64,000 nt of DNA, from assembly GCA_003153355.1 (NCBI GenBank), contig PLYH01000004.1, positions 1 to 64,000 on the forward strand, in the 5' to 3' direction. This document shows, in pieces, positions 61,741 to 61,977 of the stretch. Positions within the stretch are counted from its first letter, which is position 1. Each line of letters opens with the position of its first letter. Below the pieces are notes generated by a model that saw nothing but the letters and a program-made list of their open reading frames with translations, did no database searches and was not told the origin of the DNA. The position numbers and the translations under genes are program-made. This stretch comes from Candidatus Peregrinibacteria bacterium (GTDB lineage Bacteria > Patescibacteriota > Gracilibacteria > UBA1369).

Positions 61741-61827
61741 CTCAATGTTTGGACCCGAGGGGAATCGAACCCCCATGACTGGGTACCAACCCCGGTCATG
61801 CTTCCTAAGCCGGGCCCAAACATTGAG
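61741..61827 (-). ncRNA. cloverleaf, tRNA-like RNA of unknown function
   Basis: On the minus strand a 17-bp closing stem (61811-61827 with 61741-61757, one G-U) encloses three arms. They are GCTT-AGG-AAGC, a 9-pair stem with one C-A mismatch capped by a 7-nt loop GTTGGTA, and a normal tRNA T-arm with loop TTCGATT. The inner 68 nt looks like a shrunken tRNA with a TGG (Pro) triplet at the anticodon position. However, it has no linker bases, a 3-nt D loop, an over-long anticodon stem and no encoded CCA, unlike the other tRNAs here. It is not a standard tRNA. Its own promoter lies just upstream. Confidence 0.7.
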
Positions 61828-61834
61828 CAGAATA

Positions 61835-61843
61835 TTTATATCA
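61835..61843 (-). promoter_or_regulatory. extended -10 promoter of the cloverleaf RNA
   Basis: The minus strand reads TGATATAAA (61843 to 61835). Transcription would start near 61828, at the base of the closing stem. Confidence 0.5.
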
Positions 61844-61888
61844 AAACAACATGAAGCTTTTTTAAACAGATTCTAAGATAATTATTAT

Positions 61889-61917
61889 TTGGTACATCTG
61901 TTCAATTTTGATATAAT
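61889..61917 (+). promoter_or_regulatory. promoter of the small RNA at 61924
   Basis: TTGGTA (61889-61894), a 17-bp spacer and a perfect TATAAT (61912-61917) preceded by TGA (extended -10). Confidence 0.65.
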
Positions 61918-61923
61918 TTTGTT

Positions 61924-61977
61924 GTACCAACCCCGGTTACCAAGCCGGAAAAAGAGCTCCTGTAGTGGAGCTCTTTT
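61924..61977 (+). ncRNA. predicted 54-nt small RNA with intrinsic terminator, complementary to the cloverleaf RNA
   Basis: The promoter predicts a start at 61924, 7 nt after the -10. The RNA has an unpaired 5' end, a hairpin CCGGTT-ACCA-AGCCGG, an A-rich linker and a strong terminator (GAGCTCC/GGAGCTC, loop TGTAGT, then four T). Its first 14 nt (GTACCAACCCCGGT) and a later AAGCCGG are identical to 61783-61796 and 61807-61813 on plus, so they are complementary to the cloverleaf RNA made from minus. There is no open frame. The terminator stem also serves the VOC gene from the other side. Confidence 0.6.

Follow-up and report, generated by a model that had tools for sequence, protein, structure and literature searches.

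Type VIII toxin-antitoxin systems such as CreTA are built from two RNA partners; CreT is an mRNA-like RNA that is repressed at its promoter by Cascade-CreA (PMC12737573). At symE/SymR (PMC1891008), tisB/istR and dinQ/agrB, a LexA- or stress-controlled effector transcript lies adjacent to an antisense small RNA. Odd cloverleaves, some with a G3:U70 pair, were described by Mukai et al. (2017) as allo-tRNAs and other irregular tRNA-like genes (review: PMC7609411), and for one non-decoding group of irregular tRNAs a link to transposons or toxin-antitoxin systems has been speculated (PMC7609411). The tRNA-like domain of tmRNA (ssrA) has the alanine identity pair G3-U70, a T arm, a reduced D arm and an extended stem that replaces the anticodon arm. 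The locus reported here resembles each of these. With CreTA it would share two RNA partners, RNA-mediated silencing of an RNA effector and a tie to translation and tRNA. Unlike CreTA, its putative effector is a folded alanine tRNA-like RNA (hereafter TLS) that has a directly complementary antisense RNA (asRNA), and its toxicity is presumed. The SOS-induced type I loci make a protein product, whereas the TLS effector would be a structured non-coding RNA. Allo-tRNAs are of the 8/4 or 9/3 type with a long variable arm, whereas the TLS has a 7-bp acceptor stem, a 5-bp T stem, no variable loop and a 9-bp anticodon stem; an outer helix, a cognate asRNA and occurrence in another phylum set it further apart. 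In contrast to tmRNA, the TLS has no mRNA part, tag or pseudoknots, and a canonical tmRNA coexists with it.

The window, by which we mean the whole 64,000-nt stretch that was analyzed, comes from an ultrasmall bacterium and carries the TLS on the minus strand and the asRNA on the plus strand. An earlier note made from the letters of this DNA had described an 87-nt minus-strand cloverleaf with a 17-bp closing stem behind an extended -10 box, facing a plus-strand promoter (TTGGTA-17-TATAAT) that is followed by a 54-nt unit with a strong terminator. All of these elements were borne out, the extended -10 as part of a TLS promoter at 61836-61866 and the plus-strand unit at 61889-61977. What the note had missed was the alanine identity of the cloverleaf (G3-U70 wobble and A73), the inducible type of its promoter and the breadth of the family. 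The features are as follows.

61836-61866, minus strand: inducible-type TLS promoter with phased A/T repeats and an extended -10, TGATATAAA (match to the promoter of relatives)
61741-61827, minus strand: TLS, alanine-type tRNA-like RNA, whole cloverleaf and outer helix (fold z score, family covariation, covariance model score)
61811-61817, minus strand: 5' strand of the 7-bp acceptor stem, GGGCCCG, carrying G3 (G3-U70 wobble in 102/102 aligned TLS)
61800-61810, minus strand: mini D arm, GCTT-AGG-AAGC, with a 3-nt loop containing GG (family covariation)
61775-61799, minus strand: "anticodon" stem of 9 positions with the 7-nt loop GUUGGUA, putative target of the asRNA (fold, covariation, flank-complement test)
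61758-61774, minus strand: T arm with the canonical loop UUCGAUU (sequence, alignment)
61751-61757, minus strand: 3' strand of the acceptor stem, CGGGUCC, carrying U70 (sequence)
61889-61917, plus strand: asRNA promoter, TTGGTA-17-TATAAT with TG (sequence; family -10 statistics)
61924-61977, plus strand: predicted asRNA, 54 nt (promoter and terminator, fold, family -10 spacing)
61924-61937, plus strand: asRNA block 1, GUACCAACCCCGGU, exact 14-nt complement of TLS nt 32-45 at 61796-61783
61942-61948, plus strand: asRNA block 2, AAGCCGG, exact 7-nt complement of TLS nt 15-21 at 61813-61807
61950-61977, plus strand: intrinsic terminator of the asRNA, 11 pairs (sequence scan)

The predicted fold of the TLS (87 nt, read from 61827 to 61741) consists of a continuous 17-bp closing stem and three arms. 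Its minimum free energy is -50.1 kcal/mol (z = -6.0), a value equaled by none of 200 shuffled sequences, and it scores 85.5 bits with the family covariance model. The outer helix is formed by CUCAAUGUUU/AAACAUUGAG, the D arm directly abuts the acceptor stem without a linker, and the stem at the anticodon position contains one C-A mismatch. Since both U8/A9-type linkers and a variable loop are missing, the core is a closed four-way junction. A73 is located at 61750 and is followed by AACA in place of CCA. The absence of an encoded CCA and the uninterrupted closing stem make maturation of the window TLS uncertain, and this copy may be derived or inactive.

ARAGORN did not call the window TLS as a tRNA, and at a relaxed threshold it reached 20.9 bits with the tRNA model RF00005, against a cut-off of 29. 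Together with the 9-bp anticodon stem and the lack of linkers and variable loop, these results rule out a canonical tRNA. No Rfam family was matched at the gathering threshold. The host genome already holds 41 ordinary tRNAs in a set that looks standard, and therefore the idea of a missing tRNA was dropped. CCA is encoded by all ordinary tRNAs seen in this genome but not by the window TLS, and a CCA-adding-type enzyme is present. The one other weak tRNA match in the genome (C7:20200) is a tRNA-Val that borders on a stretch of N, and the window itself opens with a partial tRNA cut by its start (1-53, 34.4 bits) that adjoins a tRNA-Met at 70-146. Identity with tmRNA was rejected because the TLS is about 87 nt long without an insert and a full canonical tmRNA sits elsewhere in the genome (G000:C5:110329-110751). 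A split tmRNA was set aside as the main reading because of this canonical copy and because the small RNA has no room for a tag. Some TLS score about 40 bits with the tmRNA model, below its cut-off. A type I toxin-antitoxin locus was also rejected, as the 87-nt RNA is structured and overlapped only by incidental reading frames; judged by sequence, both partners are RNA, as in type VIII.

Relatives were sought with a covariance model built from a single sequence, which, at E <= 0.01, had matches in 26 of the 89 genomes that represent the order; nearly all of these loci are not called as tRNAs by ARAGORN. An alignment of 27 loci has 93.3% standard pairs and a covariation of 0.82, compared to 0.20 when shuffled and at most 0.15 when slid, figures that lean towards the model structure because the alignment was fitted to it. 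Double changes are found at every pair of the outer helix (all 7) and of the anticodon stem, the D stem covaries, and GG is typical of the D loop. A model built from the 27 aligned loci (R2) has members not only in the same order but also in further families of its class and in further classes of the phylum, all in Patescibacteria/Peregrinibacteria-type genomes. Since scores of roughly 42-50 bits were mixed with tRNA-Ala, about 54 bits and up was taken as the TLS cut-off, which left 107 distinct sequences, including one that looks like an ordinary tRNA-Ala and should be dropped (L184). Additional TLS-like sequences outside this set seem to follow a shared promoter (L221, L223, L231, L232, L234, L235 and L238), and copy numbers are therefore lower bounds. 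At E <= 1e-10, the window TLS is the only one in its genome. No gene is widely common within 1.5 kb of TLS loci, nor do they share a transposase or integrase neighbor. A search for related loci by means of the upstream ORF protein found nothing, plain DNA similarity across the family genomes and phage and plasmid records gave only T-arm fragments and noise, and viral contigs showed no match with one pattern, which covers one sub-lineage only. The earlier note had named a lack of conserved structure and complementarity in relatives as grounds for refutation; the covariance models and the flank tests described below found both to be conserved. The TLS/asRNA pair is a real, conserved RNA-pair family that is present in dozens of related Patescibacteria and has no Rfam match at threshold. 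The two-RNA system is apparently undescribed so far: no description was found in open-access full text, a search that subscription papers and bioRxiv lay outside.

The acceptor end of the TLS is strikingly uniform. Position 3:70 is G-U, and position 73 is A, in every one of the 102 aligned sequences. G1-C72 and G2-C71 are nearly always kept, pairs 4-7 vary freely, and CC is found at 74-75 in 96 sequences, with the window copy among the 6 that lack it. tRNA-Ala has G3-U70 as its classical identity element (PMC7609411). Pure structure would not explain an invariant wobble, making recognition by alanyl-tRNA synthetase (AlaRS) the simplest cause, and we infer that this recognition accounts for it. 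Of the sequence features expected of an alanine-accepting RNA, the window TLS has G3-U70 and A73 and lacks CCA.

The asRNA has a predicted fold of its own (-25.5, z = -6.1). The complementarity of 14 plus 7 nt previously claimed for it, anticodon-like loop included, is exact at 61924-61937 and 61942-61948; the nucleotides paired by block 1 take in most of the loop at the anticodon position, and the block 1 14-mer has no second occurrence within the 64 kb. RNA-RNA interaction prediction, also proposed in the earlier note, gave a duplex far stronger than shuffles, at -45.0 kcal/mol compared to -23.2 +/- 3.6 with shuffled TLS. The window asRNA covers TLS nt 14-46.

In order to examine the family as a whole, TLS nt 21-52 were compared with 400 nt on each side of the gene for exact complements of at least 10 nt. 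Such a complement to the anticodon arm is found for 75% of TLS, against 2.4% with swapped flanks, and about a quarter have no obvious anticodon-arm asRNA by this exact-match test. Complements lie downstream on the opposite strand (49), upstream on the opposite strand (16, the window layout), downstream on the same strand (12) or elsewhere (3). A -10 box was found at 71 of 75 testable loci, in 59 of these 71 located 5-7 nt before the first complementary base, and a terminator then follows the complement. Given this fixed spacing, complementarity begins at or next to the +1 of the small RNA. Cognate duplexes average -41.0 kcal/mol versus -21.6 for non-cognate ones, and 68 of 71 asRNAs pair better with their cognate TLS than with any other TLS. 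Copies within one genome are clearly orthogonal in G015, G016, G046 and G070, with some cross-pairing left in G084, G014 and G245. The complement itself differs nearly everywhere (62 distinct 10-mers out of 65), and a compensatory change is seen between the similar loci L168 and L186, where TLS ..GTTAGCACC with asRNA GGTGCTAAC corresponds to TLS ..GTTAACACC with asRNA GGTGTTAAC. Three gene layouts are known, and the same-strand tandem, which recurs in other classes with TTGACA/TATAAT-like promoters, shows that the pairing does not simply follow from an overlap of genes. The small RNA therefore has what defines an antisense RNA, namely its own promoter, a terminator and conserved complementarity to its neighbor. 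The earlier note had offered a choice between a regulatory pair of the antitoxin-like antisense kind and a degenerate copy of the cloverleaf. As judged from these sequences, the former is strongly supported by complementarity that is kept while the sequence changes, by the fixed promoter distance and by the three layouts; the latter fails as an explanation of the family, as the short unit starts at the promoter +1, ends in a terminator and stays matched in loci that have no other sequence in common.

In most cases the asRNA covers the anticodon arm (loop and 5' strand), the D stem and the last part of the acceptor 5' strand. A minority are directed at CCA and the 3' strand of the acceptor, over 19 nt in L150 and over 13 nt in L082 and L123, and the asRNAs of L099 and L079 cover both acceptor strands. 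The CCA-end class suggests that it is the acceptor end that has to be disabled. Both modes of coverage would block folding or charging, which favors a scheme where the asRNA inhibits and the TLS is the effector.

Promoters differ between the two RNAs. In genus g38, the TLS promoter has 11-bp phased A/T repeats and an extended -10 (TTTAAGAAAATTTAATGTTTGNTTGNTATAA), and 28 copies (L218-L245), spread over 19 genomes, were found when up to 3 mismatches were allowed, whereas the reversed control gave none. Apart from TLS, this promoter stands before toxin-antitoxin, competence-type and other genes, namely RelB, HicB, Gp49-type, ORF6N, KilA-N, DUF4258, SSB and ComF-like genes, as well as a Phd-like protein that scores below its Pfam cut-off. 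Within the 64 kb, 61836-61866 is the best match to the TLS promoter of relatives, with 6 mismatches compared to 10 for the next best. A Pho regulon was considered for the 11-bp repeats and is not supported, PhoU being absent from 10 of 12 genomes tested. In family f31, TLS promoters carry instead the palindrome GTGTACGNNCGTAC, which is also located directly upstream of the lexA gene in G245 (Pfam LexA_DNA_bind and Peptidase_S24) and is a probable LexA operator of a Patescibacteria family. Sites with this palindrome, one of them L212 (G245:C80:18798-18813), precede lexA, NYN-domain, metallo-beta-lactamase-fold and Y1 transposase-like genes and several TLS. At three f31 loci (L128, L170 and L171) it overlaps the -10 of the asRNA and not that of the TLS, and regulatory logic therefore varies. 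With inducible-type promoters the TLS looks inducible, and the asRNA, from a plain sigma-70-type promoter, is probably constitutive.

The explanation that we lean towards, at somewhat better than even, is that stress induces a tRNA-like effector RNA of alanine type, which its cognate antisense RNA otherwise silences. Its family, structure, alanine identity elements, cognate complementarity and promoters are read from the sequences, and from these we infer transcription, the direction of inhibition, charging and the effect on the cell. The TLS would be an alanine-accepting effector RNA made from a stress-, competence- or SOS-type inducible promoter. The 5' end of the asRNA would pair with the anticodon arm, at its loop and 5' strand, then with the D and acceptor 5' strand, starting at the exposed loop, invading the arm and opening the D stem and acceptor, such that the bound TLS could neither fold nor be alanylated. 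It would be titrated in this way until induction lifts the TLS above the asRNA. Free TLS would then be matured at its ends, in the window copy with CCA added by the CCA enzyme, charged by AlaRS, and would enter translation without proper decoding, slowing or redirecting it; the logic would be that of a toxin-antitoxin-like RNA/RNA switch. That the TLS is toxic is a guess, taken solely from its regulatory company and its multi-copy orthogonal habit.

The roles could be reversed, with the small RNA regulating other targets, the TLS acting as a stable inducible sponge and the tRNA fold giving only stability or processing. Sponges working by such logic exist, the TLS looks inducible, and a window copy without CCA and with a sealed 17-bp stem would suit one. 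However, a sponge needs neither G3-U70 nor A73, both of which are invariant, and the asRNAs are little beyond complement and terminator. Additionally, a shared target is unlikely given that the complement differs at nearly every locus, and the second asRNA class is aimed at the CCA end of the TLS. We consider the sponge improbable. Those same acceptor features (G3-U70, A73 and CCA), which tRNA-Ala and the acceptor part of tmRNA also have, together with the kept T arm and D-loop GG and the sub-threshold tmRNA scores, would fit a dedicated alanyl donor or ribosome-rescue RNA that is under asRNA control and is not a toxin, a reading that takes in a tmRNA-like acceptor, cell-wall or lipid alanylation and alanine tailing. 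Yet several mostly orthogonal copies per genome and a patchy presence fit a module better than a housekeeping function, a canonical tmRNA is present, and there is no conserved protein neighbor within 1.5 kb. Such a donor is unlikely, although it deserves some weight.

We give hardly any credence to a passive mobile or palindromic DNA element (cruciform or attachment site) or a degenerate tRNA with the short unit as its decayed copy. The direct repeat of 14 plus 7 nt at a distance of 100 bp, and several copies per genome elsewhere, are what such an element might leave. Against this, the window genome has a single copy, the covariation is of RNA type, the G-U wobble is invariant, the distance from promoter to complement is fixed, no transposase or integrase neighbor is shared, and phage and plasmid records contained no close relative at the DNA level.

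If the silenced-effector explanation holds, a tRNA fold has become an inducible effector whose antisense antidote coevolves with it, in a bacterial radiation that ranks among the largest and least understood. This toxin-antitoxin-like system, with its tRNA-like effector, would be made of RNA only, would put alanine identity to regulated use outside decoding, would supply many natural orthogonal RNA pairs, and would mean that translation is acted on by SOS and competence-type stress in Patescibacteria. Even if the TLS is not toxic, the family is a new and conserved one of structured RNAs that come with their own partner. More tentatively, and at somewhat less than even, the system may be phylum-wide, consisting of stress- or SOS-induced, alanine-charged tRNA mimics that act on translation, each held by a private coevolving asRNA and mostly orthogonal within a genome.

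The tip of the anticodon arm, GGGGTTGGTACCC (window 61775-61799), is identical in L080, L150 and the window TLS, while the rest of these sequences differs, and the three genomes span two families; the shared tip may reflect exchange between lineages or a functional subtype. L082 (G046) and L087 (G045) occupy the same gene neighborhood in two related species and have very different anticodon arms, which suggests fast change or replacement of specificity.
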